A stretch of DNA of 64,000 bases from Selaginella tamariscina (lineage: Eukaryota > Streptophyta > Lycopodiopsida > Selaginellales > Selaginellaceae). The DNA lies in assembly GCA_003024785.1 (NCBI GenBank), contig PUQB01000413.1, positions 62,001-126,000 of the forward strand, given 5' to 3'. Numbering within the stretch: the first letter of the stretch is position 1; each line of letters opens with the position of its first letter. The notes beneath the pieces were generated by a model. It made no database searches, had not been told where the DNA came from, and worked only from the letters and a program-made list of their open reading frames with translations. The position numbers were made by a program, and so were the translations under genes. This document shows positions 3,891-56,880 of the stretch, piece by piece.

Positions 3891-3943
3891 CTTTCTTGCG
3901 GAGCTAGTGTGTGGATCCTAAGATCTAGTGGAGCACCAAGCAC

Positions 3944-30746: not shown

Positions 30747-31992
30747 CCATTCCCCCTCTTCGACGACAAGTTCCACGAGCTGCAGCATGAGCTTGACGTG
30801 GTTTGGCAGGGTATTAGTGGTGAAAAGTGGCAATCGCCTCTTGAGCATGAGCAAGATTCTCCTTTGGCTCCCAAGTACGGTCGTTTGGAGAATAACCAAC
30901 CAGGTAGTAGAGCTTACCACGAAGAAGTTTAGAATCCAAGATAATGGCAACCTCGTACTCTGGTGTACCATCAATCTCGACTGGCGGTGGTGGTGGTACT
31001 GTGCGGTTGACAAAAGTATTCGGAGTATATGGTTCAAGGATAGAGACATGAAAGACCGGATGGACCTTCATGGTGCTGGGAAGTTGAAAACGAAAGGCGA
31101 CATCGTTGATTTTATCAACTATAGAAAATGGTCCAAGGCGTTGGTAATCAAGCTTGTCACATGGCCTGGTGATCTTGAGATTGTGTCGAAAGAGCCAAAC
31201 TTGGTCGCCAATTTGAAAAGCACGAGCAAGACGACGATGTTGATAAACAACTGCTTGGTGGGAAGCTTGGGCATGGTGCAAGTGATGAGCCAACTCCTCG
31301 TGAATCTGATGAAGGCGATCAAGATAGGCTTCAGCTGATGGGTTCACAAGGACATCGATGCGGGAATGCAAAGACCATTAGGGATGTTGCCCAGTGATTG
31401 CAAAGAACGGCAATTGACCTATTAAGGTATGCACTGAGTTGTTGTATGCAAACTCTGCAATGGGCAAAAAGTCAACCCAGTTGTCCTGTTGGTAATTGCT
31501 AAAACACCGAAGATATTGCTCCATGGTTTGGATGGTATGCTCTGTCTGACCGTCAGTCTATGGATGGTAACCTGAGGAGAGCTTGCATTGAATATGGAGG
31601 AGCTCAAGCAACCGCTTCCAAAACTTGGTAGCAAACTGAGGGCCACGATCACTGACAATGTTCTCTAGTAAGCCATATAACCGAAAGACCTCCCGTACCA
31701 CTAGATCAGCTATCTCCTCGCTTGTGATGGATTTGGTGCATGGGATGAAATGAGCCGTCTTGGAAAACCTATTCACCACAATCAGTGCTGAGTCAAATCC
31801 TTTAGAACTTGGGAGATCGGTGATGAAGTCCATAGAAATCGACTTCCACGAGCCACTTGGAACCGGCAATGGATAGAGAAAACCATATGGGCGATGGCGA
31901 GGAACCTTGGATCGGCAACATACATCACAAGTATGTACAAAATCAACCACATACCTACAGAGTTGAGGCCACCAATAACTGCGGGTAATAAG
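30747..31992 (-). pseudogene. Chromovirus pol 3' half: integrase core, C-terminus and chromodomain
   Basis: Reading leftward from 31992, the zinc-finger tail (YWWPQL..YV, then HTCDVCCRSK) leads into the integrase core ([31 protein letters not shown]). After a frameshift comes the C-terminal region (FQIGDQVWLFR, LGPFSIVDKI, VHPVFHVSILEPY). The end is a chromodomain (YEVAIILDSKLLRGKLYYLV, RTWEPKENL), which assigns the element to chromoviruses. The region upstream of YWWPQL in this orientation is not element sequence: homology stops at 31992. The missing 5' half is found in opposite orientation at 32578-36590. Confidence 0.9.
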
Positions 31993-33060: not shown

Positions 33061-36000
33061 ATGGCAGCAATCACTCAACAGGAGTATACACGCATGCTTT
33101 CAGAGTTGGATTGTTTGCACACGGAGGTCACCGGGGTGAAGCAAAAGAACCAGCAGTTGATTAGCGAGAATCAACGATTGATGGTAGAAAAGCATGAGCT
33201 TGCTAGGATCAAGGAGTGGCAAGATCAGGAGGGTCAAAAGCTAGTGCAGCAAGTGGCCGAACTCACACACCAGATCCAACTGCTACAAGGCAAGCCTTCG
33301 AGCTCAGGTTCCTCTACAACACCACAGGAATCAAAGGTTAGTCTGCTAGAAAAGTTTGACGGTATGAGATCCTAGTTCCGTGGTGTTGTAGAGGAACCTG
33401 AGCTCGAAGGCTTGCCCTAAACCATGACCCTAAACCAGTCATTCGGATGAACCCTAGTCGTTATGCTGATGATCAAGGTCTAGTTGGACTACTACTCACC
33501 GGCACTGCTTGAGCTTGGTTTGCGCCTTTGCTGAAAAAGAACTCACCATTGTTGGATGACTTTGAATCGTTTGTTTTGAAGTTTAAGCACTGCTTTGGTG
33601 ACACCAACAGCGTTTGAATGGCAATCAACAAGATTCGTTGACTTCAGCAGGGTAATCGTCCAGCATTAGTATATGCATTGGAGTTTCGCCTTTTGGCATG
33701 TGACGTGCCATGGGATGAGGAAGCTTTGATCGATCAATTTCGCCAAGGGCTTCACAACGATGTTAAGGACCTTCTCTTGACATTCTATGAGGACCCAGTA
33801 AGTCTCTCTAAGGCTATCAGTTGTGCCGTACGGTGCGATAATCAACTATTTGAGCGTTGGTCAGAACAGCTCTAGGCATCTCGAAGGGAGTATACATATG
33901 TCGCAGCAGTAGCATCACCGTTGACAGTATTGATGGTAACCCATACTCCTGGTCAAGTCCTAGCTGGAAGCCCAGTTCTCATGGAGTGTGATGTAGCCTA
34001 AGCTCGATGTCGAGGACCGTTGATAGCAACTGAGAAGCAACGGCGTAGGACCAACAGTTTGTGCTTGTATTGCGGTGGTCCTGGTCACATCACGATCAAC
34101 TGCCCGAACAAGCTGAGGCGCATGGTCAACCACATCCATCCCATGAATCCTCAGCCTATCATGGTCAACCACGTTTGCCCTGAGAGTCCCAAGCTCTTGA
34201 GCCAAAGCAACAGTTTTGAAGTCCTTAGTAAGTTGGATGAGAAGTTAAATGAGTAAGTCCAGCCAAAGTATGAGCCGTTTGGTTGGACCATCCCAAGCAT
34301 AAGGAGTCCTTGCAAACAACTGGTTTCATTCTATCATCTCAAGTTGGTAAGTCCTTTGCCACACAAGCTGAGCTTTGCATGGCAAGGGGTCGCAAGGTCA
34401 CAACATCAACTCTGTTGGACTCGGGAGTCAATGCTTGTTTTATGAATCGCACCTTTGCACATCAACACTCCATTTTCTTGAAGCAGCTCTCGTACCAAGT
34501 TCCTATTTCAATCGTGGATTCCCGGCCTGTGGCATCAGGTGTTGTGTTGAGGAGTTTGAGCCCATCTAGGTGACCCTAGGAGATAATTTCCTGTAGGATT
34601 CATTCAATATGATCAATAGTCTTGAGTACCCATTCATCCTTGGTACCCATGGTTTGAGTTGCACATCCGACCATTGACTGGTGCAAGCGGTGTTTCAGTT
34701 TGCCAAAGGAGGTAAAGATTTCCAACTCTCCCAACCCAGCCTTGGAGTCCTTGCGAGTTTGCATGATTTCATTGGATGAATTCATTAAGGAGGGTAAACA
34801 AGATCCTTTATCAGTTTTTGCTGTAGTTAATCACCCCAGTAGCCAAGTCCAGCTCAAATAAGTCACCACTCCAATTACCAGCTAAGTACAGTGAGTTGTT
34901 GATGTCTTCGACAAGGTCAAAAGCGAGTAAGCTCCCAGAACACCGGCCATATGACTGTCCTATTGACTTGGTGGAGGGTGCTCAAACCCCCTTGGGGGCC
35001 GATTTATGGACTTTCTCCGGTAGAGCTCGAGGTTTTGTGGGCATATATCAAGGAGAACCTTTCCAACTGATTCATTCGACACTCCAAGTCTCCAGCCGGT
35101 GCGCCTATCTTCTTTGTCAAAAAGAAGGACGGCTCATTGCATTTTGGTGGTGGATTATCGTGGGCTCAACAAAGTGACAGTACGCAATCGGTACCCCTTA
35201 CCACTGATATCGAGCATGCTAGAGCGTCTTGCTAGGGCCAAGTACTTCAGCAAGATTGACCTTCGAGGTGCGTATAACTTAGTCAAGATTCGCCAGGGGG
35301 ACGAGTGGAAGACTACTTTCCACACGCAGTACAGACATTTTGAGTACACGGTGATGCAGTTTGGTTTCACTAATGCACCGACTGTCTTTCAACATATGGC
35401 CAACGACATTTTTTTGCGAGTTCTTAGACATATTCGTGATCGTGTACCTTGATGACACCCTCGTATATTCCAAGACATTGAAGAAGCACAAGGAACACGT
35501 TTGGCAAGTTCTGCAAAAGTTACGGGACCATGGCCTTTATGCCAAGCTGGAGAAGTGTAGTTTTGAGCAAGACCATGTGAAGTTCCTGGGGTACATCGTC
35601 TCGGCTGCATGAGTTTCAATGGATCCTGCCAATGTGAGGACTGTGTTAGATTGGTAGGTCCTTGGTCTGAACAGGATGTTCAGTGTTTTCTTGGCTTTGC
35701 CAACTTTTACTGCAAGTTTATCAAGGACTACTCTAAATCGTTTTGCCACTCACCACATCACACAAAGGACAAGCAGTTTGTGTGGACACATGAGGCGGAT
35801 GCTAGCATGCCTTCACCTCCACTCCAATATTTGCTCACCCAGATCTTGATAAAACTTTTGTCATCGAGGCAGATGCATCAGACTTTGCACTTGGGAGCAT
35901 CCTTTCTCAGTCGGCAAAGATGGTCAACTTCACCCGGTAACATTTCACTCCCGTAAGTTTCTTGCACCAGAGATCAATTATGAGGTACATGACAAGGAAC

Positions 36001-36590
36001 TTCTGGCTGTTGTGGATTCATTTGAAGAATGGAGGCATTTCTTGGAGGGTTCACCACTCCAAGTAGTAGTCTACAATGACCATTAAGAACCTCATGTACT
36101 TCCAGTCAACACGAGTTTGAGTCGTCGACAATTTCATTAGGCCCAGTTCTTAGTGCGATTCAACTTTGTCATCACGTATCAACCAGGTTCATAGCAGGGT
36201 AAGCCGAATGCTCTATCTCGACGATCCTACTTGGCTCCTCGTCTCGGTGATCCAGCATTTGACCAACAACGGTAGGTTCTTTTTGGGATCTAACCGTTTG
36301 AAAGTGATAGTTGTCGAGGTAACACCATCTCCAGTGGATTCCAACATTTTGGACATGGTTCACATGATGCTACCAGCTAATGCCTTTGCTCAAAATGTTC
36401 TGAACCATATTGTTTCAAATCGCACTTCGAGTTCCAACTCCATTATGACCATGGTGATATAGGCAATTTGATGTTTGTGACGGCTTGCTATTCTACAACG
36501 AACTCCTGTATATACCGGAAGGTCCTTGCCATCTTCAGGTATTACAATCTTGCCATGATGCTGTTGTTGCCAGACATTTTGGAATTTAGG
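33061..36590 (+). pseudogene. Chromovirus gag-pol 5' part: gag, protease, RT, RNase H, integrase zinc-finger start
   Basis: Gag starts at 33061 (MAAITQQEYTRMLSELDCLH) with a coiled-coil-like, Q- and E-rich N-terminus, and ends with a CCHC knuckle (CLYCGGPGHITINC, about 34071). The protease block LLDSGVNACFMNRTF is near 34410. RT spans about 35090-35610: [39 protein letters not shown], and after a frameshift the catalytic YLDDTLVYS. RNase H follows, broken (about 35740-36200). The integrase zinc-finger start ([17 protein letters not shown] in frame) ends near 36580, where homology stops abruptly. Numerous stops and frameshifts show an inactive copy. Confidence 0.9.
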
Positions 36591-40080: not shown

Positions 40081-40439
40081 CAACACTCACTAATTTTATT
40101 ATTTCAGTTATAAAAGCATTTTATTTTTCTCTTACGTACAGGTTTTTTATACAAAAATATAGGTGTTTTACATGTAAAAGGAAATGGCAATTGTTTTTTA
40201 AGAATGTAACACAACATGTATAATTTTATAACTTAAGATAAACTTATATTTATGGTACATACATATTATATAGTTGGACATATATCATATACACATATAC
40301 ACTGAGTACTTACATTTTCAACATATATAAATTATATTGACCTAAAATTTCAGTTTAAATATAATACATATACAGGGGGGTGTGTGTTTAAATATGTATT
40401 ACTCATTAACTAAGCAGAAAAATGACAGAGAACATAATA

Positions 40440-40463
40440 CATGTTGTAACTAAAATGGGCATG
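40440..40463 (+). repeat. Left terminal inverted repeat
   Basis: The 24 bases start CATGTTGTAACTAAAATGGG. They match the complement of 54647-54670 except for two transitions. Just inside lie GAATATTC palindromes (about 40548-40582). Confidence 0.65.
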
Positions 40464-41040
40464 GCTATAGTCCATTTCTTAATAATTAGTAATTTTAGTT
40501 ATTTAATTAGCATTTTCTAATATTAAAGGAATATTCTTTAGAATATATGTTTGAAAACAGAATATTCTTTAGAATATTCTATTTTGTATTCACCCTTTAA
40601 TAAATTATAGCATTCATTGAACAAAAATTAATAACATTATAAAAGTAGAAGGTATTAAATTATATAATATATTGCCTAATATAACAATTAAGGAAGAGCA
40701 TAAGAGGTACATTATATAAATATTGATGTTGTTATTAAAATATTAATATTTAAATATAACATTATTAATTAAAAATTTGTAGTATAATAATATATATAAT
40801 ATACAAAATCCTATAATAATATAGTCAATCTTCCATATCTTTTTTAAATTTATATAGTTAAGTAATACAATTTGGTACTATTATTAAAGAGTTTATAATA
40901 ATTATGAATATTAAATATATGATATTTTATAATTTTGTAATTGCTTTAAGCTTCAGAAAACATACATTCTCTTGCAGTTTTGTTAATTGTGACTTTATCA
41001 ACGCTTCTTGACATCCACCCATATCGAATGGATTTAACAT

Positions 41041-44000
41041 TTATAAAAATATTGGGTCTTTTTGATTGGGAGACCATGTTTTCTCTAGGCATCCATTATA
41101 TCTTTCGCTCTCCTTCTCGTGTCGCCTTTTTTGTGGTTTGAACCATGCAACCTTAACAATATTATTTTTTGTGATTACTTCAGGTGTGTCGATAATTTGA
41201 CCCATCCAAATAGGCTGATTATATGACACATCTGGAGTAATGAGAACCATCATTAGTTTTTGAAGATCCTGCAGCAATCAAAGTATGCTTTAGGTTTTTG
41301 GTTCCTTTGTCCAACAAAGTGTGGGGTTTGCACTTCCACATCACTACTGGCTTTTATGTCGTCTGTGCTCAGTGATGTCATTTTCAATCTCCTCTCGCCA
41401 CCTTGTTTTAGGCCAAAAAGGGTGTTGCAATTCTGTACTTGTGACAGTAAGGCCCTTCCAACTCTCGAACAACAGTCTCCAATAGTCGACTAGTTCTGAG
41501 TAACCAGTTGCCTTATTCAGAATTCTTTGGCATTTTTTGAACCCATGCCACATATTTTTTTGATGCCATCAATAATAACCTCTTGTTCCTTGAGCTGGGC
41601 ACTCAATGGAATAGGGTCTGGTTGTCCTTCTGGGAGAAGTGGCTTTCCATTCTCTCCACTTTTGAAGAGCATTAACCCCTTTTTCGGTAACCACTCATGC
41701 TCTGATGGCCATAACTTGTATTGCATAATAGGTATACCATCTCGTATGGAGAAAAAGATTGTAGCGGCACAGGTGACCAACTAAAGAATCACTCCCCTCT
41801 TTTATATACTCCTTGAGAAATTTTTTGAAGTCTGGCACCTCAGTCACAAGCAAAGCACAACTTTTTTTGGAGATGCAATTTTCAAAAAGATTCATCATAT
41901 GCGGTAAGGTAAGTGCACTTGTCCTTTTTGTAGAGTTGGAGACCTTGCTGAAGAACGCATCAATATCTTCATGAGTGTGACCAACCATAAGAAACTGAGC
42001 GTGATTGTTTCAAACACACCTTTGGCAACAAGCATTGACAAGTATGCTAGCACATATCTAGAAAATAAAAGTAAGTATGAGCTTGAGAAACCCTTAAGTA
42101 AAATGATTTACCTATTTTTGTTCTCGCCTGCACAATTATCCATCTGTAAAAGCAAATGACGAGGAAGCTTATTTGATGTTGAGGACACATGTACACTATT
42201 TGAGCTAGATCCCTCCACTGAACCTGAACTCTCAACAGGGCCATCTGTTTTTTGTGCAGGCTGCTGACAATGCCTCTCATATTCCCAAGTAGCCTCAAGT
42301 GCAGACGTGTTCATGAGAGCATTATGTAAAGGTTGAAGGTGTTGTTTCTTCACTTTGAGATCACTGATAGGACTTGTCTGTGAGTGGGCTTCAAGGTTTC
42401 TGAAACACATGGCCAACGACCCAATAGTGAAATTGGAGTCGCTAGACCAATGTGGAAGTGAAAAGTGTCCATATGACTCACAACCGTGTCCATGTGTTAG
42501 CACACCTGTCAATGAAATCGGAAGTTTCATGACATTTCCAAGGCACTTTGGTGTTGCAACGAGCTTTGGAATGCTGGTCTTTGAATGATCCATCTTGTCA
42601 TGGATCAAGCACAGGTACTCTGATGGGCGTGACACAGAAAGCATGCGGTGTGCATAGTACTGAGACCGGCAAGTTTGTTGTGCAATCATGTGGGCCTCCA
42701 TCTTCTTTTGAATGGCAGTGATCTTTTTTGCACAAGCCTCTGCAGCCTTCAATGATGTACAAGTGTCACACTTGGAAAAGCTAGAGTGTTTTGCAATCTC
42801 CACATCCTTAAAATGAGTATTCCATATGTTGTTGAAGGTACCAGTGCAGATTGCTTGGAGCCCCATCAAACTGAGGCACTTGTTCACATGTTCACACAGC
42901 TTCAATTGAGTGTAGATTGAAGGCAAAACCTTGAGATTTTCCCTGACCCCTGCATTTGTGGTTCGGCATTTGTGAGGCATCCTGTCTGCATTTGCTTCCA
43001 CAAAAGCCTTGAGTATCTCTATGGCTGCCATAATGTGAGAGCGGGTTTTGACCAAGCGAGTGTTCCCATGTACTGAGGTTCGCGCTCCATCTAGCCACTC
43101 ATCCCTCCGACGGTAGAACGTGGTCTTTGGGATCCCGTATATACTGTACCAAGCTTTGAAGCAGATGGCCACCTTATTAAATACCATGGATGTACTCTGA
43201 TAACCTGTGTCCGAGGCCATTCCATCAATACACCCAGTTAGTGCAGCATATACAAACTCATGCCTTTGCTTTTGGGTGAGCGTACGAAAGACATGTCTAC
43301 ATTGGGTAATTTCATTCCGGTCTGCCATCTGACAACACTTCTTCTTGCAACAGTCAATCGTGGAAATGCTCGTAACACTTTCGGAAGATGTAGGATCCAT
43401 CTTTACCCTCTTGCTGAAACTTGCAGGGGAAGATCTACAACCCATGAATCGCCTTTTTTTACAATAGGACCAATGCAAGGAACCTCTTCAAATATGAGTT
43501 GTTCTTCCGGGTTGTTATTATTGAAATCCAACCCAGAATATGTTGAACCATCTTGCCGTCTTAATTCAGATGTTCGCCACCTCACGAGGGATCCAGGATG
43601 CAATGTGCCATTAGGTGAAACCTCTGTCACAACTACACCCACGAAGTCGGACCCTAGTTTCTCTTCTGACACTGCTTCCATTGGATTTATAGCTGTGATG
43701 ATGCCTCTCCCAACCTCAATCTCATGAAGAAGAGAATCACCTCATCCATCACAGCAGGCAAGCCATCATCTGGAAACTCGTGCTACTATTTGTTTGTGAC
43801 TCTGCATATTCTGTGTCAGCCTTGACTTCATCCAAATTCCACAATACAGGAGAACCCTCCTCAAATTCCATTCCGGAACCTCAACATGCTTGAAAATGGT
43901 GTTCACCCATACGTACACACAAGATCCTTGGGCAATATTGTGACATGATGCATTATCATCTCGAACTTCCACAGTTCCAGTGCCAACTATCTCGTTGTTC

Positions 44001-44044
44001 CGAAGAAGACATACTTTATCTCCAGTATACATATTGTCCTGCAC
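41041..44044 (-). CDS. DUF7869-like protein, possible DDE-type transposase, with frameshifts
   Basis: Reading leftward, an N-terminal part (44044-43403: YTGDKVCLLRNNEIVGTGTV, VVVTEVSPNGTLHPGSLVRW) precedes a 456-residue frame (43478-42108). That frame has a possible helix-turn-helix (YGIPKTTFYRRRDEW, residues about 114-128), a CDTC motif (about 237) and an acidic motif HDKMDHSK (about 293-300). It ends LLLQMDNCAGENKN. A 54-bp GT-AG intron (42058-42111) joins this to VGHTHEDIDAFFS. After a frameshift near 41785 a basic C-terminal part (LWPSEHEWLPKKG, PFWPKTRWREE, NIVKVAWFKPQKRR) runs to about 41041. QMDNCxxENKN and VGHTHEDID are hallmarks of DUF7869-type proteins. Acidic residues in HDK, QMDN and HEDID could be a DDE/D triad of an RNase H fold; this is inference. 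Confidence 0.65.
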
Positions 44045-44181
44045 ATAAATAATTGTGTTATTTATGATATCTGTTTATGCAATATTTCTAAGAAATCATA
44101 ACTGCGGTTGCTTAATAATATGCATGTGCAATAATACATAATTATGTATAGAAAAATATCTCATGTTAATTATAACTGATG

Positions 44182-44935
44182 GGCGGGATTAATCCCGCCC
44201 ACGACTCCCTTGACGAGGAACGGTCGGCGGGATTAATCCCGCCGCCGACTCTACCCCTTCGGAGAGAGTCGGCGGGATTAATCCCGCCGCGACTCTACCC
44301 CTCAAGAGAGAGCGGCGGGATTAATCCGCGCCTCCTTCCTCTCGAGGAAGAGGCGGGATTAATCCGCCGCCGATCTTCCTCGTCGAGAAGACGGCGGGAT
44401 TAATCCCGCGGACTCTCTCCACGAGGAAGACGCGGGATTAATCCCGCCGGATCTTCCTTGTCGGAAGAGCGGCGGGATTAATCCCGCCACATCCCTCCGG
44501 AGAGGGGCGGGATTAATCCCGCCACAACTCTGAAGAGGAAAGGGGCGGGATTAATCCCGCCCACAACTCTGACGACGGGAATAAGGCGGGATTAATCCCG
44601 CACAACTCTCTCCGAAACTATGATTTCAAAGAGATCTCGGATGAATCCTGCCCACAAATATTTAAAACAGGAAGTGGGCGAGATTAATCCCGCCACCCCT
44701 TCTCTGCCTCCTAAAATGGTTGGCGGATTAATCCCGCCGACAACTCTTTCTAATAAATTCAAGTAAATCTTTATCAGTTGAGAAGTTATCGGCGGGATTA
44801 ATCCGCCACTCTTTTTAGAGGCGGAGAAGCATTGCCCGACTAATTCTGCCATAGCTATCAAAGAGATGGTGGCGGGATTAATCCCGCCACCTCTTCAAGA
44901 GGCAAAAAAAAATGGCCGGATTAATCTCGCCGCCC
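44182..44935. repeat. Palindrome array 1: about 18 copies of GGCGGGATTAATCCCGCC
   Basis: The 18-bp core is a perfect palindrome. Exact or near-exact copies begin at 44182, 44226, 44271, 44314, 44352, 44392 and onward at roughly 40-45 bp steps to about 44912, with degenerate copies near 44634 and 44830. Spacers of about 20-28 bp are often dyads themselves, for example gactctaccccttcggagag followed by agtc, or cttcctctcgaggaag, so the array could extrude as a string of hairpins. It lies about 135 bp upstream of the first recognised codon of the minus-strand gene. Open frames reading GGINP/GLIPP across it are by-products of the repeat. Confidence 0.95.
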
Positions 44936-45514
44936 CGGCTAACCGAGAATATTAAGTTAAAATATATTTAAACGGGATAAATCCCTAACGAATATATAAT
45001 CCTAATGCATTCCTAAATCCTAAATTCTAAAATTTAAGAGAGAATGTAAGAGAGTGAATCTTTATAAATATATCTAAATTTGTTTATAATACTTACTTGT
45101 AAACAGCACTGAAGGCGCCGTGCTTTCTATAAACAATAGCGCACCCAATTTAATGTCGCTCCTGAGCTGATCATAAGAAGAAAAAAGAAAATCTAAAGAG
45201 TGAAAAATAAAGAAATGAAGAAACCTTTACCGAAGAAAGAACTAGATCTGAATTTGAGTGGAAATTAAATGCATTTTCAAATTTACATGTCAGACCGATA
45301 ATACTTATGTCAGAAATTCAAAATTTTTGAAAAACAAAAAAAAAATTTAAGATGAGTTGAACAAATAACCGACACTCTGACATATATACTCTCCAATTCC
45401 AATGAGTGTTTTAAAATTGCATTTAATGTCATTCAAGTGCTTCAAGCTGTTTAATATTACGAAATTTTAATAATTATTCTACATTCTTAATATTCAAGTA
45501 TATATTATTAAGTT

Positions 45515-45575
<61 letters not shown>
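45515..45575. repeat. (AT)n microsatellite
   Basis: A nearly pure run of about 30 AT units. Confidence 0.95.
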
Positions 45576-45578
<3 letters not shown>

Positions 45579-45585
45579 TTATACA

Positions 45586-46322
45586 TATAAATTGATATAT
45601 TATTATATATTATTTAAAATTATTCATAGTCTATTTATTATTATTATTTTCTTAATTACTCGAGTAATTAATTTACATTTCCTAGTATTAATGGGATATT
45701 CTTTATTATTTTCTTAATATTCAAAGAATATTCCAATATTAAACCTTATTATCATAATTAAATTAGTTTTATTCTTAATTATTTCAGTAATTATTCTACA
45801 TTTGTATATATTAATGGGATTTTCTCAATTAACTTCTTATTATTTCAAGAATATTCTTATGTTAAACCTTATTATCAATATTAAATTAATATATATTATT
45901 CAAACTATATATGACTATATATTAGATAAATGATGTATTATTATGTATAATTTAAAATATGTTCATAATGTGTATATTAATATCATTTTTATAATTACTT
46001 GAGTAATTAATCTTCTTTATATTAATGGGATATTCTTTATTATTTTCTTATTATTCCAAGAATATTCCAATATTAAACATGATTATCATAATTAATTTAG
46101 TTAATTATTTCAGTACTTGATCTACATTTGTATATATTAATGGGATTTTTCTCAATTAAATTCTATTATTTCAAGAATATTCCAGTGTTAAACCTTATTA
46201 TCAATATTAAATTAATATATATTATTAAAACTATATATGGCTATATATTAGATAAAATCATATATTATTATGTAATATGTTCATAGTGTGTTTATTAATA
46301 TTATTTTCTTAATTATTCGATG
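45586..46322 (+). repeat. Tandem duplication of about 335 bp in the central block
   Basis: Copies at about 45586-45928 and 45929-46253 share 'attaatgggatattctttat', 'aagaatattccaatattaaa', 'acatttgtatatattaatgg' and 'ctatatattagata'. A third, partial copy follows to about 46322. Each copy holds repeated GAATATTC words like those near the element ends. Confidence 0.85.
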
Positions 46323-46518
46323 TTTGTTTTGCACACATATATAAACATAATCATAAATTTATATATACACGTGCACACGCATTAGAAGCACTTACAGAGA
46401 CACATATGCACACACATGCACATTGCCCTAAATGAAACTTGAGAAATTATATGTTGCTTCTTTATTGAAAAACATCATGTTCAACGCATGTATGATCTCT
46501 ATATACTCAGTCTATATG

Positions 46519-46875
46519 TATGTAACACATTGAATTTACACATGTAATATATATGTATGTCTGTGTGTATACACGTGTGTATGTATATATGTGTACTAAT
46601 ATATGCAATGTGTACGATTTTAATTTGTTAACACTCTCTCTCTTCTTTTATATATACACAGTGTCACCATGCATAATCCCTTCTCTCATACATACACACC
46701 ATGCATGATCATGATTTATAATATGTAACCTGTCTTTCAAACCCTATGTAACACATTGAATTTACACATGTAATATGTATGTATGTCTGTGTGTATACAC
46801 GTGTGTATGTATATATGTGTACTAATATATGCAATGTGTATGAATTTAATTTGTTAACACTCTCTCTCTTCTCTC
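46519..46875 (+). repeat. Tandem duplication of about 228 bp
   Basis: The block 'tgtaacacattgaatttaca' to 'ttgttaacactctctctctt' occurs near 46519 and again near 46747 with few changes, including the same internal TATG/TGTG run. Confidence 0.85.
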
Positions 46876-47339
46876 ATACATACACATCATGCATGATCCA
46901 TGTTAATATGTACTGTCTCTCTTCTCTCAAACATACACACATATTGTCTCTCTTCTCTCATACATACACACCATGCATGATCCATAATATGTACTCTGTC
47001 TTTCTAATATTATGTACTAATATGTATATATGTCTATGTATATAATACTATATGTGTATATATGTATTGCTACACATGAAGCTTTAACACTCTCATGGAC
47101 ACACACATGTTAAACCCCTGCATGATTTTTATTCTTGGGGTGTATATGATACACCCACGCACACGCACACGCTGATAATATAATGAAAGAATATTCATTT
47201 AGGGCGAATCTATCTTTTATTCTTTTTAATGTTTAAGTATATTCTTAAAAGGAATATTTGATTAGGGTTAATATATATTCTATTCCTTTTAGGGTTTAGG
47301 TATATTCTTAGGGTTTCAAGAAGCAAGGCGGTGGAGGTG

Positions 47340-47621
47340 GCAACTGTGAAATCTCTCTCTACACACAGGTGAGATCTCTCTCTCTCTCTCTCACACGCAC
47401 ACTCTTGAGTTTATTTATTTATTTTTATTCACATATACATTTATATGTGTGTGTATCTTAATAATATAATTTATTTATCTATCTCTCGCACACACATGCA
47501 CACTCCTATACATATATACATACATATTATAATATACACACACACATATATGTGTGTGTGTTTGTGTATCTGTATAATTTATTAATTTATTAATTTTATC
47601 TCTTGCACACACGCACACTCC

Positions 47622-47662
<41 letters not shown>

Positions 47663-48090
47663 TATATATATATACACATACTCATATATATGTGTGTGTG
47701 TGTGTGTGTGGTGTTTGTTTATCTGTTAATTTTATTTGTTTCGCTCACACACGCGTACACACGATATACATATACACATATATATATACCTATGTACATA
47801 TATACATACATATATTATGTGTACCAGTATCTGTATAATTTTATTTATTTATCTATCTCTCGGACACACACGTACACTCCTGTATACATAAATATACATA
47901 TACATATAAATATATACATATGTGTGTGTGTGTGTATCTGTATAATTTAATTTATTTAGCACATACATACGATATACATATACATATACATATGTGTGTG
48001 TGTATCAGTATAATTTTATCTGATTTGTCTATCTCTGGCACACACACGCACTCTCCTACACACACATATACATATAGATATATATATTTG
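47340..48090 (+). repeat. CA/TG microsatellite-rich tandem repeats
   Basis: Five to six diverged units of about 100-150 bp alternate 'atctctcgcacacacacgca', 'cactcctatacacacatata', a (TG)n run and 'tctgtataattttatttatt'. Long open frames here are low-complexity. Confidence 0.8.
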
Positions 48091-48095
48091 TGTAA

Positions 48096-48840
48096 CAGCG
48101 GGATTAATCCGCCACCCTTCAGGCAGGCTATTCGGTTAGCCTCATGAGCGGCAAGATTAATCCCACCGCCCATGAGGCTAACCGAAGAGCGGCGGGATTA
48201 ATCCCGCCGCCCATAGCTTGCGTGCTGGGCCTAGACGGCGGGATTTATCCTACCACCAATGGCTTGTCTGAAGGGCCTAGGCCCCGCCGTGTATGCATGC
48301 CCTGTGCGAAATCCGACGGGATTTATCCCGCTGCCAATGGCCTGTCTAAAGGGCCTAGGCAGCAGGATTAATCCTGCCACCCATGGCCTGCGTGAAGGGC
48401 CTGTGCGGCAGGATTAATCCCGTTGGACACCCATGCCCTGCACAGAATCTGGCGGGATTAATCCCATTGCCAATGGCCTGTCTAAAGGGCTTAGGCGGCG
48501 GGATTAATCCCACCACACATGGCCTGCAGGAAGGCCTGAGCGGCGGATTAATCCCGCCGAGCCTTCAATGCCTGGTGGAGGGATGAATCCCGCCACCCTT
48601 CTTTTTTTCCTCCATTGGTGAGTCGAACCAATCCCAAATGTCTTTGTCTGAGACATAGAAGGTTTACAAACCAATGGAAGGGACTGAGAAGGTGGCGAGA
48701 TTCATTTCACCATCCCTTACATGGTGGGCGAGATTAATCCCACCACCTTTTTGGAGCCCCTGAAGGGGTGTGCCAAATAAATCCTGTCCAGTTCTCTCTG
48801 AGACCGAGAAGGGTGGCGGGATTAATCCCGCCGCACCTTC
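48096..48840. repeat. Palindrome array 2: about 15 copies of the same 18-bp palindrome
   Basis: Copies of GGCGGGATTAATCCCGCC, more diverged than in array 1, begin at about 48097, 48149, 48189, 48235, 48313, 48359, 48405, 48450, 48496, 48541, 48575, 48692, 48726, 48772 and 48814. The spacers differ from those of array 1: most contain 'ccatggcctg' and 'aagggcctagg', themselves GGCC-rich dyads. Core shared and spacers array-specific suggests separate homogenisation or selection on the core. The array lies about 365 bp ahead of the first codon proposed for the + strand gene. Confidence 0.92.
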
Positions 48841-49204
48841 CATGTAAATATATATGTGTATTAGTATATATAAGTTGTATATCTCATTTTATTACTTTTA
48901 TTATCTTATCATAATATTTCAAGTAAAAACTAGGAAACTATGTAAAACTGTCCAGAACTCACATTTGTGGTGGTTCTAAAACGAATGTTATCTTTCTTTT
49001 GCACTAGCACAAATGTGAGCTTTAGACAGTTAATCTCGTCCACTTCTCTCTTAGACAAAGCAAGGTGTATGTGAATTTATCTGTGTATTATTTTTGTATA
49101 TTCGGGTTTATAAAAGTGTGTGTGCGTTTTTATATGATTTATATTCATAGTGTATTATTTTACAGAAGGACGATTTGATCAAACAAGGAGATTGAGTCAT
49201 TAAT

Positions 49205-52200
49205 ATGGAGTTGTCGTCAAATTCTGGGTAAGAATTAAAATAAAATCTGTTATATTCGGATATGTGTTTAAAGAATTAATCATTTTTGTATTCAAATGTG
49301 GCATTGAGGTGACATTGAAGACGAGAGCAGGAGAAGAGATGGGCAGGGAGATTCTGGAATCAACTTGGCCATATTTTAAACTAAACGGGAAGCGCATTGA
49401 AACAAGCATGGTTGCTGTCAAATTAACCTCTGTCACATCGCATGGACAAGCAAAACTAGATTCGTTAATCAAGCATCCGAAAGCATGCTACGAACCCAGA
49501 TTGAACGATGCTCGACACATATGCCTTGTTCCATCCAATGTCACGTTCTCAGATCCAGAGGTCACCAGTTACAACATTAATTTCGGGTGGTCTTGTTGAC
49601 TTGACGTTCACGTGTTCACTAATGATGTTGACCGTGGAGTTCTTCTTTAACTCAACGAAAGCTCATTTATGGAGGGATCCAATTAGATGTCTACTTCGAA
49701 GATCTTTAGACTCATCAAGTAGGTGTATTCTCAGCAGAGATTGCTTCACAATACAGAACATCCACAAGTGGAGCAATCGTCCCTTTTCACATTGAAGAAG
49801 AACACAGCGACATCATAAGGGAGATTGAGATGGTGGTGCGGTCTCAGGTTCTTTACAGATCACGTTCAATTTGCTTAGAAAACTTCGGGAGCTGGAAGAG
49901 TGTGCCGAAAACATTAGAACATCATCAATTAGGGATCACACATGTTGATTTGGATCGTAAAAGAAAATCATCAGTCGTTTTATCAGCTGCACCTGTGGCA
50001 TTCCATGCTGGAATAAGCCACAAGGAAATGATGTTGGATGATAGGATTTATGAGTGTAGGGTTAAGTATTGCAGCGTGAACCCAAACTTCAATTACATGC
50101 CACTCAACCAAGAACGTGTAGCTAAGCTCATGGAGAAGATGAAGGACGACAATTCTTATACTGTTTCACATAATGCTGTTTTGTGTCCATACTACGAGAG
50201 AAACAAAGGCGCTGACAAAGTGTGGATCACAACACCGGAATAAATGATGAAGATTCAAATGGAGAATAGAAAATCAATCAAGTACTACATCATTAATGAC
50301 CAGCACACAATAACGGCAGCCTAATGACTTTTCGATGAACACAACAAAGGAATGATGGCAACAAAACTTTCTGAACATACCCGTGAGAAGCTGACAAAAA
50401 GATCGGCATTTTTAATGAAGGCAAATCTCACAATCGAGCACCATAAGTTATGGGTGGAATGGGACGCTGCAGACACCAACCACTACAACATCAAAAATAT
50501 GGGAGAAGTTCAAACACATGCGAGCCGTGTGGGAATCTCTCAGCGACCACAAAGAGCTACTGCAGGGAATACACAATGTGCGATGTATCGGGTAAGTAAA
50601 TTGTTTGGGCGGGATTTATCTTGCTGGTATATTAATTCTCCCTTTTTTTCTAGAGAGTTGAAGAAATTGTTGATCGTCGAGGACTCTGCAGGCCAGATGT
50701 GGTGCTTCTCAAGAAGCTGCAGTGGTCACTAGGACACTGTTGAGAGCGTCCAACCCCGGGGTTCGGCCGACAAGCCGGGCCTTACCTCAGGAGTAATGGA
50801 AGGTATTGGATGGCCTCTACCCGAACACCGCGAGGGCCGTGTACAGGTAAGAGGGAGTTCTACTGAGATGACTGGGTAGAGAGTGTTGCGGGGCCCAGGA
50901 GTGGAGCAAGCAGGGAGTGCCCGCTTGTAAGGTGAATAGAAGGAAAATGGATATATATTGCCTATCTGAGTACAAACTATCTCCGACAGTGGAGCAAGAT
51001 ATAAGACGCAGACTTGACTCCAAAAAAGACCCTGACCCACTACCCGCCTTCCGGCTTATATAGTGGGTTACCTACCACTAGACCCTAAGTACAGGTGGCG
51101 CCTTCCCACTGGTCTGCCGCCTAGTGACAAAGTCCTGCCTACCACATTTATGCGCCTCCCCACGCATGCTGTCCTTCGTACCCTGAGTAGTTGGTTCGAA
51201 TGATCGGATCTACGCATGGTTACGCCACCGCCTGACATCGGTCGCCCTCAATCCGTACCTAAAGTACCTCCCTTATCCGGCGCTTTGTCCCGTCGCTCAT
51301 CCGCGCTGGTGGACGTCCCGCCGGCTGGCTGTGTAACAGTGTCGGGCCACCATCAACCAATTGTAGTAGTTGATTTTGCCCAAGTGGGCGGGAAGGAAAA
51401 CATCCTTTTTAATGATGTTGATTTCTTGTCCGAGGATAGGATCTTTGCCAAATGGTTGGGGATTATGGAATCCTTTGTAAAAGGAACACTGAAGAAGAAG
51501 CAGACAAGTGAAGGGGAGCCTTCGAGAAGTCTGCAAAGAAACCCAATAAACGCCGAAGGCTAAGTCTGTTCAATCTACAAAGGATGTAGACAACGATTTC
51601 AAGCTCACATGGTTGAAGCCTTTAAATGGAACAACGATGGAGGAGATGGAAGTCTTGGCTGATTTGTGATTGATGCAAACTACAAATTAACAATAACAGC
51701 CCCACCTCTCCTTTTCATCTCAAGGCAATGGAGTTGAAGACGGTCAGGCACTTTAAGGAGTGGTTGGGAATACACTGCCACAAACTGGGTTGGACCTCGG
51801 CTTCAACATACAAAGAGGTCAGTAAATATTTGCATGTGACAAACGATGATATGCTTGTCGAATGGGTGAATCAATCGGAAGATCTGGGTAAGAATCTATT
51901 GCACGCCAACCAAAAAGAGAACATTGCGATGACGCCTTCTCTTATGGCAGTCCTTCAGCAGCGGAGAACCGAGTTGAACCTTATAAAGGAGGATGCTACG
52001 AATCACGACAAGCCCTACAGATGTTTGTTGTTGATTCGGAGATTTATGGGGTAACATCACTGCTTAGAAACCGTTTCAATTGTTCGTGATGGATCGGCGG
52101 GTGTCAAAAAATCCTTCGACAGACAGACACTAGAGGATTTGGTGGAGAAACTTAGCCGTGCAAGCATGTACAAGAAGGTATTTATTATTGAATTCATGCT

Positions 52201-52957
52201 TGCACTCTTGACTGATATCTACGTTTTTAGGTATTTATTTCTTGATTCTTGCTCATGTCACCGATACTTTTGCCTTTGCCTTTGCCAAGAAAATAACATC
52301 GTTGGACAGGATTTTATATGAATGATGCTGATCGAAGTGCATTGATACGGTTGTTCACTTGGTTGTTAGGAATGCGCCAAACAATTTCAAACTTCCAAAT
52401 GACTGGCCAGGCATCTTGTTTGCACTCCAACGGGCCTGAACCTCCATCCGATACACCGATAGCTGAGAGGACGTATTCGGCAATGTACGTTATCCAAACA
52501 TTACAAGTCAAGCGCACAATCGTCAACTTGATCAGGGGTCCTCACAGTGATGTGTGGGTTTTTACTACTGCACTAGGGGGTCCGTCTTGAAGGAGTGTTA
52601 CCTTCGGGATACATGTGTGTTTGCCGTTGAAAGGATAAGACCATGGTTGAGGACCTGAACAAGTGGATAGAGAGGTTCTCAACTGACTACCCCAACAAAC
52701 CCATACAGGAGTATTTGAGAAAGTTCCCTCCCGATAAGTGCGATAGCTTTGAAGGCGAATCTGGTTCAATGTCGGAGTCTGAGGACGAACTTCAATCAGA
52801 TATTAGACCGGAAGTTATCTCGAGGAGTACAGAACATTCACACACTCCATTACCCATGGAAAACATCAACAGAAGATACGAAGATCATGAACCATCTCAC
52901 AAGCGGCTAGACCTTCTTCGCCTCACTCAGAAGGTAATAGCGAAGAAGAATTGTTAA
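49205..52957 (+). CDS. ParB-like domain plus putative DNA methyltransferase-like region, frameshifted
   Basis: A short first exon (MELSSNSG, 49205) precedes a long, frame-broken coding region. A ParB/sulfiredoxin-like fold is suggested by PNFNYMPLNQERVAKLMEKM (about 50089-50148) followed by YYIINDQHTITAA (50283-50321), matching the ParB pattern of N-x-R-V-x-x-L then (I)x(D/N)GQHRxxAA. After 51340 lies a possible motif IV relic (TITAPPLLF, about 51690-51715). RTIVNLIRGPHSD (about 52511) then GSVLKEC...TCVFAVER (about 52580-52640) resembles the beta-class N4/N6 methyltransferase order of motif IV, then motif I. Key residues are altered: Ala in place of the usual Asp before PP, and only one of the FxGxG glycines. 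A 104-residue acidic tail closes the gene. A GC-rich insert (50738-51338) interrupts it. ParB likeness is moderate; methyltransferase assignment is tentative. Confidence 0.5.
50591..50655 (+). other. Short intron carrying a relic of the array palindrome
   Basis: The likely intron starts gtaagtaaat and ends ctttttttctag. It contains gggcgggatttatcttgctg, which matches the left half and centre of the GGCGGGATTAATCCCGCC palindrome about 1.8 kb away from array 2. Confidence 0.6.
50738..51338. mobile_element. GC-rich insertion with TGTT...AACA ends, possibly a solo LTR
   Basis: This 601-bp segment is much richer in GC than its surroundings. It starts TGTTGAGAGCG and ends GCTGTGTAACA; including neighbours, the ends read gacactgtt and aacagtgtc, a 9-bp inverted repeat. 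A TATA-like box (gcttatatagtggg) lies near 51054. It splits the + strand reading frame between LLKKLQWSLGH and HQPIVVVDFAQVGGKEN. No direct target duplication is visible. A solo LTR is the simplest guess, with a small TIR element as the alternative. Confidence 0.5.
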
Positions 52958-53167
52958 TAAGTTCTTAGAGTGATGAATAGTTGTAAATGAGTGTAACATA
53001 AGGCATTTTTGTATATTTCGTTTATATTTGTACAGAAAATAAATTCTCAAGGATTAATGAAGCTTTTAGTTCAAACATGGGTCACACATTAACAAGGTAA
53101 ATAATATACCTTGATAATTTTAAGGTCAGCTAATATCATTTTGCAGATGTAATGAAACATTGAGAAC

Positions 53168-54313
53168 ATGGATTTTCAGCATTGCCATGAGGTAAGAGAG
53201 GGGTTTGGCAAAAATTTCTTGTGCCACATGTCAGAATGACAGAGTTCATGCAGGAAATGGATAATAATGCAGCTCAAAACATCGTTACCATGGGGGCCAC
53301 TTCATTTTTCATCACTATTTTATTGGCTTCAGTTCCGAAATCAATTTCTTCAGCGCATGCAATATCTGAATCTTGTAAGGATGATGTACAATTAAATGAT
53401 AAAGGGATAGGCAACGATATAGTGGCAACGATAAATGTGAAAGGGAGCAAACAAGTGATTTGCAAAGTATTCAAGAGGCAACGCTACCCATGTTACTCAT
53501 GGCCATATTGTGTTGTTGGATGTCAATGGTGTTCTGCTTCATCGACAAAGGCCCGAGGATAGGAAAAAGAAATCAAACAAGGAGATTTCATTCCTTGTCA
53601 TGGTAAATTTCGATATGATATTATTTTTCGTCCAGGTTGGATCGTCTCTTTCAAAAGCTTAAGGAGATGGGTGCCTTGTGGGGATTTGGTCATGCATGCA
53701 GATTCATAACTTACACCGCTGTGAATTTGCTTAAGAAACATTGTAGTGTTGCAGAAGAGGTGATTCGTAAAGATTGGATTTTTGACCAACGAGTATGTTA
53801 TAAACCTCTCGAATTTCACAATATAAGAAAGGAAAGCAAGCCATACTTCTTCAAGAATGAAAGAATAATTGAGAGATCAGTCACTTAAGGATAACGAAGA
53901 AACACATATCTTAGTGGTAGACGACTCTTCAGAAGGCTATGCTCAACCAAAACATTGCTTGTATTCATCCAATCACTTTCGATCCATATTCTGATACCGA
54001 TATCATGGATGAGCTAGTGAACTACTTGGATACGTGCCTCAGAAAGAAGAATCTCAAAATTTTGTGAGCAGTATCCACCGTATCAACATTTCCTGAAGCT
54101 TTTCTTTCTCGTGATTTTGAATTTTATAAAATGAAGGATAGCAACCGGGCACTTTATAATATTATTCTTAAGGAACGTCATTTTTTAGATGAGCCTTTAT
54201 GCAGACCTGGTCTTATTACATCTTATGTATTAACAAGGATGGCAACTCCCAATTGCATTCGTGAGAGTGTTAGTGGTGGCAACAACATCAAGATATTGAC
54301 CAAAATGATTTGA
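53168..54313 (+). CDS. FCP1/NIF-like HAD phosphatase, frameshifted
   Basis: The core HAD motif IVLLDVNGVLLHR lies at about 53507-53545, with the nucleophile aspartate at 53519; the usual DxDx(T/V) reads D-V-N-G-V. It is followed by FRPGLDRLFQKLKEMGALWG (about 53627), equivalent to the FCP1 block (V)RPGLxxFLxxL. Next come DWIFDQ, ILVVDDSSEGYAQP (about 53906), equivalent to the IDDSP motif III, and NIACIHPITFDPYSDTDIMDE then LVNYLDTCL (about 53955-54040), which fits the C-terminal part of FCP1-homology domains. A tail to 54313 has no recognised domain. At least three frame changes are needed. Members of this family dephosphorylate proteins, some the RNA polymerase II tail; the target here is unknown. 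It follows the ParB-like gene in the same direction. Confidence 0.65.
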
Positions 54314-54646
54314 TTAATCCGGAGAGTGATGATTTAACAAAATGAGGAGATTTCTCTTATGTTAGAAGAAAGTATTTATAAAAAATTAACATGTTGATAA
54401 GAAAATGATTTCATTTGTAATTATGTTTGATAGTATTTTTATTATTGTAAATATTTTTAGAATAAGAATAATATGAATATTCTAAGATATTTTAGGAATA
54501 TTCCTTACTAAGTAAGGTTATTGAAGGATTAATTAATTAATTAATTAATATTTAAGGCTTAATTACATATTAATTAAATGATTAATTAATAATTAAAACT
54601 TAAGTATTAATTAGTAATTTATTTTATATTCCCATTTTCATGTATC

Positions 54647-54670
54647 ATGCCCACTTTAGTTACAACGTGC
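54647..54670 (-). repeat. Right terminal inverted repeat
   Basis: On the minus strand it reads CACGTTGTAACTAAAGTGGG then CATG, pairing with 40440-40463 at 22 of 24 positions. Chromovirus sequence starts two to three bases outside it. Confidence 0.65.
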
Positions 54671-54671
54671 A

Positions 54672-56880
54672 TATGTGGAGTTCTTGGGGAACATTGTCTC
54701 GCCTGCAAGAATTTCTATAGATCCGACCAAGGTGAGGACTGTGTTAGATTGACAAGTCCCTCAGTTTGTATGAGATGTTCAGTGTTTCCTTGGCTTTGCC
54801 AACTTCTACCACAAGTTCATCAATGATTACTCCAAAATCGTGTTGCCACTCACCACACTCACACAGAAGGACAAGCAGTTTGTGTGGACACAAAAGGCAG
54901 ATGCTGCTTTTAACGCCCTGAAGCAGGTCTTCACCTCTGCTTTGATATTGGCTCACCCGGATCTTGACAAACCTTTTATCATTGAGGCCAATGCATTGGA
55001 CTTTGCACTTGGGAGCATCCTTTTTCAAGTTGGCGAAGATGATCAACTCCACCCGGTAACGTTTCACTCCCACAAGTTTTTCACACTGGAGATCAATTAT
55101 GAGATACATGACAAGGGACTTCTGGCTGTTGTGAATTCGCTTGAAGAATAGAGGTATTTCCTGGAGGGTTCACCACACTAGGTAGTAGTCTACAACGACC
55201 ATAAGAACCTCATGTACTTCTAGTCAGCACGAGTTTTAAGTCGTCAGCAGTTTCGTTGGGCCCAGTTCTTATCATGGTTCAACTTTGTCATTACGTATCG
55301 ACCAGGTTCACAGCAGAGTAAGCCGGACGCTCTATCCCGATGGTCCTACTTGGCTCCTCATCCCAGTGATTTAGCATTTGACCAACTTCTTTTGGGGTCT
55401 AACCTAACCGTTTGAAAGTGATGGTTGCTGAGGTAACACCATCCTCAATGGATTCCAACATTTTGACATGGTTCGCACGATGCTACCAATTGATGCCTTT
55501 GCTCAGGATGTCTTGAACCATATTGTTCCAGATCGCACTTCGAGTTTCAATCCCAATTATGACCATGTGACTAACAGGCGGTTCGATGTTCGTGATAGCT
55601 TGCTGTTCTATAACAAACTCCTATATATACCAGAAGGTCCTTGCCGCCTTCAGGTATTACAGTCTTGCCATGATGCTATTGTTGCCGGACATTTTGGAGC
55701 TCGCAAGACATTCGAGGTTCCTCGTCCATCACCCATACGGTTTGCTCCAGTTATTGCCTATTCCAAGTGGCTCCTGGAAGTCAATTTCTATGGACTTCAT
55801 CACCGATCTCCCAAGTTCTAAAGGATTCGATTTAGCATTAATTATAGTAAATAGGTTTCCAAATGGCTCATTTCATCCCATGCACCAAATCCATCACAAG
55901 CGAAGACGGTTGATCTAGTGGTACAGGAGGTCTTTTGGTTACATCGCTTGCTAGAGGACATTGTCAATGATCATGGCCCTATGTTGCTGCTAAGTTTTGG
56001 AAAGCGCAGTTGCTCGAGCTCCTCCATATTCAGTGCAAGCTCTCCTCAAGTTACCATCCACAAACTGACGGTCAGACCGAGCATACCATCCAAACCATGG
56101 AGTAGTACTTTTGGTGCTTTAGCAACTACCAGCAAGACAACTGGGTTGACCTTTTGCCTATTATAGAGTTCACATACAACAACTCGGTGCATACCTCAAC
56201 ATGTCAGTCACCGTTCTTTACAGTCACTGGCAACATCCCCGATGGTCTTTGCATTCCCGCATTGATGTCCATGTGAACCTATCAGCTGAAGCCCGTCTTC
56301 ATCGTCTTCATCGGATTCATGAGGAGTTGGCTCATCACTTGCACCATGCCCAAGCTTCCCACAAAGCGGCTGCTGATCAACACTGCCGTCTTGCTCCTGC
56401 TTTTCAAGTTGGTGATTGAGTTTGGCTCCATCAACACAATTTCAGAACCACCAAGCCATGTGATAAACTTGATTACCAACGCCTTGGACCATTTCCTATA
56501 GTTGGTAAGATCAATGATGTCGCCTTTCGTCTTCAACTTCCAAACACCATGAAGGTTCATTTGGTCTTTCATGTCTCTGTCCTTGAACCATAATACTCTG
56601 AATACTTTTGCCAATTTCACGGTACCACCACCACCACCAGTCAAGTTTGATGGTACACCAGAGTACGAGGTTGCTACTATCCTGGATTCTAAACTTCTTT
56701 GTGGTAAGCTCTACTACCTCATTGATTGGGTGTTACTCTCCAAGCGATCGTACTTGGGAGCCAGAGGAGAATCTTGCTCATGCTCTAGAGGCGATTGCCA
56801 CTTTTCATCGCCAATACCCTGCCAACCACGTCAAGCTCGTGCTACAGCTCGTGGAACTCGCCATCGAAGAGGAGGAATGG
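54672..56880 (+). pseudogene. Second chromovirus copy, 5'-truncated: RT tail, RNase H, integrase, chromodomain
   Basis: Homology with the copy at 33061-36590 begins within the RT, at VEFLGNIVSPA (about 54673). RNase H follows: [34 protein letters not shown], then after stops [17 protein letters not shown]. The integrase zinc finger is near 55650 ([20 protein letters not shown]) and the core near 55780 ([17 protein letters not shown]). The GPY/F region and a chromodomain (TPEYEVATILDSKLLCGKLY) run to about 56870. A purine tract (cgaagaggaggaatgg) abuts the LTR. Many stops and frameshifts are present. This copy keeps the stretch across which the other copy is broken, so it shows what lies at that breakpoint. 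Confidence 0.9.

Follow-up and report, generated by a model that had tools for sequence, protein, structure and literature searches.

A probable Sola-like giant DNA transposon with palindrome arrays upstream of two outward-facing gene blocks in Selaginella tamariscina

A 64,000-nucleotide stretch of the Selaginella tamariscina genome (assembly GCA_003024785.1, contig PUQB01000413.1, positions 62,001 to 126,000 of the forward strand), hereafter called the window and used for all coordinates below, contains one copy of an element of about 14 kb. The element is a DNA transposon, probably of the Sola kind and of the cut-and-paste type, in which palindrome arrays lie upstream of two gene blocks that point outward. 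It is regarded as a transposon because of its inverted ends, the 4-bp target duplications and the two empty sites seen in the family, its high copy number and the near identity of some copies. A first-pass annotation, made from the letters of the sequence, had proposed a candidate DNA transposon at this place, and the recurrence of the ends, the colinearity of ten out of ten sampled copies, the duplications and the empty sites bear this proposal out.

Ends, target duplications and empty sites

The 24-bp inverted ends of the first-pass annotation, matching at 22 of 24 positions, agree with the sequences. The repeats extend to 27 bp, and the two ends agree at 24 of 27 positions when the true element boundaries (40437 and 54672) are counted:

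40437–40463, + strand: A-end terminal inverted repeat, ATACAT followed by GTTGTAACTAAAATGGGCATG; most sampled copies start ATGCAA
54646–54672, − strand: G-end terminal inverted repeat, CATGCCCACTTTAGTTACAAC followed by GTGCAT

At up to three mismatches, GTTGTAACTAAARTGGGCATG matches the window twice, both times exactly, at 40443 (+) and 54646 (−), and 100 shuffles give no match. The pentamer ATGCA stands directly outside the 21-bp core at most of the 49 ends examined, with a per-position agreement of 22–25 of 25 A-ends and 22–24 of 24 other ends, the latter including two of a third type. Flanking most ends as it does, ATGCA seemed likely to be the duplicated target. This was ruled out by the empty sites of copies E4 and F9, which place ATGCA inside the element; the element therefore starts with 5'-ATGCA, and 4 bp are duplicated.

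Both E4 and F9 are nested in other copies of the same family, and family copies elsewhere supply the empty site. Directly outside ATGCA, both sides of the insert carry the same tetramer, ATAA for F9 and ATTA for E4, which the empty site has in a single copy. For E4, all 11 aligned rows contain the undisturbed string, and for F9 19 of 23 rows do; some of the F9 rows are overlapping stretches of one place, and the four misses correspond to two places, each fetched twice.

An exact 4-bp duplication is present in 9 of 21 end pairs, compared with 6 of 420 mispaired combinations, and in none of the 21 pairs at each of eight other offsets. As for other duplication lengths, 2 of 21 pairs agree over 3 bp, 2 of 21 over 5 bp, and none over 2, 6, 7 or 8 bp.

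Family copies lie inside or abut other family copies at loci L015/L016 (E4), L045/L046 (F9), L055 and L058. Nine of the 21 end pairs, that of the window copy included, mismatch even when a 1-nt slip is allowed, which suggests exchange between copies or assembly chimeras.

Copy number and colinearity of copies

The source genome searched comprises 300.7 Mb in 1,391 contigs. At up to three mismatches, the end sequence yields 2,667 forward and 2,589 reverse matches (5,256 in the genome), compared with 0 and 8 for the reversed-pattern control. Among the 100 exact ends listed, there are 28 convergent neighbours, 20 of which are 11–16 kb apart. None lie less than 5 kb apart, and miniature derivatives are thus not seen in this set.

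Ten full copies were chosen because both of their exact ends were listed about 12–15 kb apart, and they consequently form a non-random sample. Outside sequence gaps, all ten are colinear with the window copy and have the same order; E2 and E4 contain 2,500-base runs of N. The check that the first-pass annotation had proposed, recurrence in the same assembly, is thus positive for the ends, the palindrome, the genes in order and the target duplications elsewhere. The coding parts are more than 99% identical between some copies, which indicates that the spread was recent. Across six open reading frame pieces, the nonsynonymous-to-synonymous ratio among copies (pN/pS; here and below from simple counts, uncorrected for the relatedness of copies) is 0.17–0.64; by this measure all three genes are under selection.

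The family comprises roughly two thousand copies. Half of the 5,256 ends gives an estimate of about 2,600, while the 27,128 exact palindromes in the genome, divided by 15.6 exact palindromes per sampled copy (172 in 11 copies), give about 1,700. At 14 kb each, these copies would make up an estimated 8–12% of the assembly if most of them are full length.

A diverged relic with a similar end occurs on contig C7 (L049:184-759), only its first 537 bp being alike, at 81%. This relic hints at older or sister families. The same C7 stretch carries an F-box/KIB1-4 gene, which we take to belong to a plant family. Short runs of TTTAGGG, presumably of the plant telomere type, are present in several copies (L014:1055, L018:829 and 1284, L021:6704 and 7252, L024:812 and 1361, L026:562, and L027:6713).

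Organization of the element

Between the inverted ends, the window copy is organized as follows:

40946–42057, − strand: DUF7869 gene, second exon, C-terminal half, with the motif VGHTHEDID
42058–42111, − strand: putative 54-nt GT-AG intron of the DUF7869 gene, placed from the sequence; the flanking exons align to adjoining parts of the relative P0001
42112–44032, − strand: first long exon of the DUF7869 gene, with a probable ATG at 44032 and the motifs HDKMD and QMDN
44182–44931, no strand: palindrome array 1, which lies upstream of the DUF7869 gene and holds 16 sites at up to four mismatches
48097–48832, no strand: palindrome array 2, which lies upstream of gene 2 and holds 13 sites at up to four mismatches and 14 at up to five
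49205–52980 (end approximate), + strand: gene 2, large protein, several exons, probable ATG at 49205; ParB/methyltransferase-like by eye only
50608–50625, no strand: single palindrome-like site in an intron of gene 2, found in 10 of 11 copies (E2 has a run of N there)
53236–54313, + strand: gene 3, NIF/FCP1-type phosphatase-like protein, probable ATG at 53236

The gene sets thus point outward from a centre and each has a palindrome array upstream, just as the first-pass annotation had described. Its gene identities fared unevenly: DUF7869 is supported by two window pieces and the FCP1-like protein by copy E2 only, while the ParB/methyltransferase assignment finds no support in any profile. A CA/TA microsatellite-rich stretch is found between the two arrays (46300–48090).

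Palindrome arrays

The 18-bp palindrome GGCGGGATTAATCCCGCC occurs 9 times exactly in the window and 30 times at up to four mismatches. Genome-wide it has 27,128 exact occurrences, whereas the reversed pattern, used as a control, has none. In the 11 copies, 409 sites were found at up to five mismatches, including the 172 exact ones. Their spacing peaks at 44–45 bp, and 234 of 367 gaps under 120 bp measure 42–47 bp. The core GATTAATC is the most conserved part, at 92–100% per base, versus 86–94% for the outer bases. Measured from the 21-bp A-end core, array 1 begins at 3.73–3.78 kb in all 11 copies, the window copy included, and array 2 at 7.65–8.6 kb in 10 of them, the run of N in E2 falling there.

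An RNA-hairpin function of the palindrome was considered and rejected, as a change in one arm is, overall, accompanied by one in the other no more often than by chance. Two-sided arm changes number 29, versus about 26 expected from summed position-wise values; 14 of the 29 are complementary, 7 of these at one position. Since the arm changes are nearly independent, the palindrome is better understood as a DNA dyad read by a protein. The arrays look like binding sites in front of the genes of the element.

Gene 1: a likely DDD transposase

The DUF7869 gene is frameshifted in both exons in the window copy. In contrast, the first exon is a 659-residue open frame in sister copy E3, and the second is one 392-residue open frame in sister copy E7. 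The PF25273 (DUF7869) profile scores over cut-off on two window pieces, 42108–43487 (expectation value, E, 6e-13) and 41695–42009 (E 9e-19), and on the E7 frame (E 1e-26). The first exon is 49% identical to residues 1–336 of P0001, and the second is 43% identical to residues 335–706. The pN/pS of the first exon is 0.29.

Residues D192, D195, D353, D393 and D395 are invariant in 14 of the longer relatives among the 43 found, and fall in the motifs DKMD, QxDN and GHTHxDxD. This pattern would fit a DDD catalytic core, and the DUF7869 protein is likely a DDD transposase. No CxxC is present between D353 and D395 in any of the 14 relatives, the choice of catalytic residues being our inference. The scans of element pieces and relatives put no further family of transposases or integrases over cut-off; a match to Transposase_23 (TNP1/EnSpm) on an upstream piece is below threshold (E 0.058).

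The genome profile scan for DUF7869 scored 150 of 4,249 candidates and yielded 300 matches; all those listed are over cut-off. The open-frame lengths of these hits were not used as evidence, as the frame at C660, which is the same element, crossed a run of N. None of 14 control genomes match; the ten named controls are prokaryotes, and this result says little about eukaryotes. No close relatives were confirmed in viral contigs, and a limited literature search found no publication on DUF7869.

Gene 2: a large protein under purifying selection

Gene 2 consists of at least three coding pieces, with pN/pS values of 0.37, 0.17 and 0.64 and with 11, 0 and 11 stops in the other copies, respectively, and is under purifying selection among copies. 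Of the 89 loci scored, 55 have an uninterrupted 478-residue exon; the loci scored are the best of 6,710 candidates, so that this figure is no family-wide rate. For at least 10 of 16 loci, a divergent DUF7869 hit lies 8.2–8.6 kb from gene 2; the 16 are the gene 2 loci on contigs with a listed DUF7869 hit, and the remaining six are not proven misses.

By eye, gene 2 contains a ParB-like stretch, YYIINGQHTITAA, and a stretch resembling methyltransferase motif I. Both were judged against what we take to be the typical patterns, and no profile confirms them. The open reading frame pieces scanned gained no ParB or methyltransferase support in Pfam, NCBIfam, PHROGs or PDB. Gene 2 matches no DNA-binding profile, and structure searches returned only weak unrelated matches or none. 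It may be a diverged relative of the ParB-methyltransferases that serve as accessory proteins in giant transposons of algae. Nothing relevant to ParB with palindromes in transposons was found among the literature matches listed.

Gene 3: a phosphatase-like protein

Gene 3 is frameshifted in the window copy and forms a 356-residue open frame in sister copy E2. The E2 frame matches PF03031 (NIF) with an E of 5e-12 and 46.2 bits, versus a curated cut-off of 21.8, while the window's own gene 3 pieces do not match this profile. TIGR02251 is found on gene 3 only below its cut-off. The pN/pS is 0.55. Among the literature matches listed, there is no report of a NIF phosphatase in a transposon.

The window copy and its surroundings

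The window copy is a frameshifted member of the family. It lacks a target duplication, as the first-pass annotation had noticed: its flanks are CATA and ATGT. The odd flank described there is also real. From position 54666, the right flank holds a Ty3 pol gene, entered at its residue 272 (reference copy) and including an RNase H domain (PF17919, E 2e-24), and no other part of this gene adjoins the left end. The missing duplication, together with a pol gene that stands at the right flank alone, indicates that the two ends come from different insertions. Either exchange between copies or misassembly would explain this.

The window copy is also interrupted by one sequence that is not part of the element:

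50670–51363, no strand: 694-bp insert, one AATTG copy included

This insert is absent from the 10 sampled sister copies wherever these are ungapped. By eye, it has AATTG on both sides, and inverted copies of GACACTGTT are found near its ends. Elsewhere in the window, Ty3-type fragments (pol pieces and a chromodomain integrase end) are located at 3929–5108, 30814–31377, 34866–36057 and 54666–55329, and an ABCG-type transporter exon, matching ABCG1 and ABCG25 about equally, at 59750–60379.

Proposed mechanism and alternative explanations

The DUF7869 protein, as the transposase, would bind the 27-bp ends and carry out insertion with a 4-bp stagger. The palindromes would serve as protein-binding sites setting the expression of both gene blocks, and the factor that binds them would most likely be made by the element itself, from gene 2. 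Gene 3 would be a captured phosphatase-like protein, perhaps a regulator rather than an enzyme, judging from its sequence.

Several observations weigh against this account. An exact 4-bp duplication is missing from 12 of 21 end pairs, the window copy among them; three of the 12 (E1, E5 and F8) match given a 1-nt slip, as judged by eye. The likeness to Sola is drawn from published descriptions. The DUF7869 sequence and profile match no solved structure, so that the catalytic fold is deduced from motifs. In gene 3, all 11 copies read DVNGV where motif I is expected (window 53500–53560), the second D being replaced by N. Motif I of these phosphatases is DxDx(T/V), and the replacement makes phosphatase activity doubtful. 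For gene 2, a search of 5.8 billion proteins that requires shared 5-residue words gives no relative at E 0.001, and Pfam ParB_N (PF02195) has no match in the whole genome, while 10 of 14 controls match. The missing duplication and unlike flanks of the window copy might even suggest that the mirror layout is an accident of adjacent repeats, or of chance ends around host genes. This is extremely improbable, as the same order recurs between the same ends in 10 of 10 sampled copies and two copies have empty sites; chance or adjacency is rejected by the genome-wide recurrence of ends and colinear copies.

Which protein reads the palindromes, and to which superfamily the element belongs, admit other answers. 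The arrays could be self-recognition platforms, where the gene 2 protein, as a diverged ParB-methyltransferase, binds the dyads, spreads or methylates, and thereby marks the copies and keeps their promoters active against silencing; we put this forward tentatively, as an idea with the odds against it. The same transposon might instead carry palindromes that bind a host factor, in which case the state of the host cell, and not the element's own protein, would switch it on. GGCGGGA and GGATTA/TAATCC are consensus sites of E2F/DP and homeodomain proteins, respectively. The dyad contains both, array 1 is present in all 11 sampled copies and array 2 in all but one, which is gapped there, and the lack of a DNA-binding profile in gene 2 points the same way. 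On the other hand, 27,128 exact copies would be a heavy burden for an E2F/DP-like or homeodomain factor, and published algal elements pair a ParB-methyltransferase with a transposon (PMC12477816); a host factor thus seems rather unlikely, though worth keeping in view. Equally doubtful is an assignment to another superfamily, whether EnSpm/CACTA or its wider clade, KDZ, Ginger, or an unnamed one (superfamilies as listed in PMC10294476). It would account for the sub-threshold Transposase_23 match, and giant EnSpm elements carrying accessory genes are reported in red algae (cited in PMC12477816). However, duplications are 3 bp in EnSpm and 8 bp in Zisupton (PMC12730594), the termini here are ATGCA..TGCAT and not CA..TG, and the pieces and relatives scanned give no match over cut-off to another transposase or integrase family. 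A length of 4 bp alone fails to exclude the EnSpm clade, as the wider clade produces duplications of 2–5 bp. The EnSpm-Mirage-Chapaev-Transib clade also has a C(2)C motif between the second D and the last catalytic residue (PMC12730594), whereas all 14 relatives lack CxxC from D353 to D395, the presumed counterparts of these two residues.

Placement in the Sola superfamily, by description, is the answer that we consider quite likely. The element behaves as a giant Sola transposon would, and is a putative member of that superfamily.

Implications

The self-marking idea is directly testable, since the dyad stands before both gene blocks in the sampled copies. If true, it would provide a eukaryotic transposon with a parS-like cis element and a matching trans factor. 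One exact dyad, present in tens of thousands of copies, is a candidate DNA target for the DNA-binding and methylating proteins of prokaryotic type in giant transposons, which are proposed to act on the DNA of their own element (PMC12477816), and the section on giant elements in PMC12477816 names no DNA target for ParB-methyltransferase proteins. DUF7869, a family without a stated function, gains a mobile-element context. Moreover, one 14-kb family can reach the share of an assembly estimated above.

Comparison with known systems

Clustered palindromic sites together with the ParB-like stretch of gene 2, seen by eye, recall bacterial ParB-parS systems. In contrast to these, the genome gives no ParB_N match, and a chromosomal transposon would need no partition. 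In En/Spm, the element-encoded TNPA protein has repeated short binding motifs near the promoter. The arrays described here resemble these in being repeated short motifs, and the single Transposase_23 match is a further likeness, but the arrays are internal and not near the ends. The element further differs from EnSpm/CACTA in its termini (ATGCA..TGCAT, not CAC..GTG) and in its 4-bp rather than 3-bp duplication, from KDZ (Zisupton) in having a 4-bp rather than 8-bp duplication, and from Ginger in that the element pieces and 14 relatives scanned contain no Gypsy-like integrase match.

Giant KDZ, EnSpm and Sola1 elements have been described in the brown alga Ectocarpus (PMC12477816). One of them, the 21.5-kb Sola1-1_Ec32, carries opposite its transposase a gene for a 1,104-residue protein with ParB-like and DNA methyltransferase domains, and such ParB-methyltransferase proteins, for which green and red algal cases are cited, are proposed to bind and modify their own element (PMC12477816). 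The combination of genes, which the first-pass annotation could not match to any named superfamily, is therefore not wholly unprecedented. A limited literature search found only this paper on ParB-methyltransferase with Sola transposons in algae. Like Sola1-1_Ec32, the Selaginella element is a DNA transposon of giant size in which the likely transposase gene faces another large gene on the opposite strand, gene 2, in the position of the algal accessory genes. Unlike the algal accessory protein, the gene 2 product has no recognisable ParB or DNA methyltransferase domain and no match to either profile in the pieces scanned; and neither palindromes nor a phosphatase are mentioned for Sola1-1_Ec32 in the main text of PMC12477816.

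Sola elements encode a DDD transposase, generate 4-bp duplications, have inverted repeats of 11–1124 bp and are present in the moss Physcomitrella (PMC10741241). The 4-bp duplications of Sola2 are AT-rich (PMC3627910), and some Sola elements exceed 15 kb, their inverted repeats being short and variable (PMC10741241, PMC3627910). The Selaginella element shares the 4-bp target duplication, and its 27-bp inverted repeats fall within the Sola range. It departs from these passages on Sola in having three genes together with palindrome arrays, and the paired arrays and the phosphatase-like gene look new.

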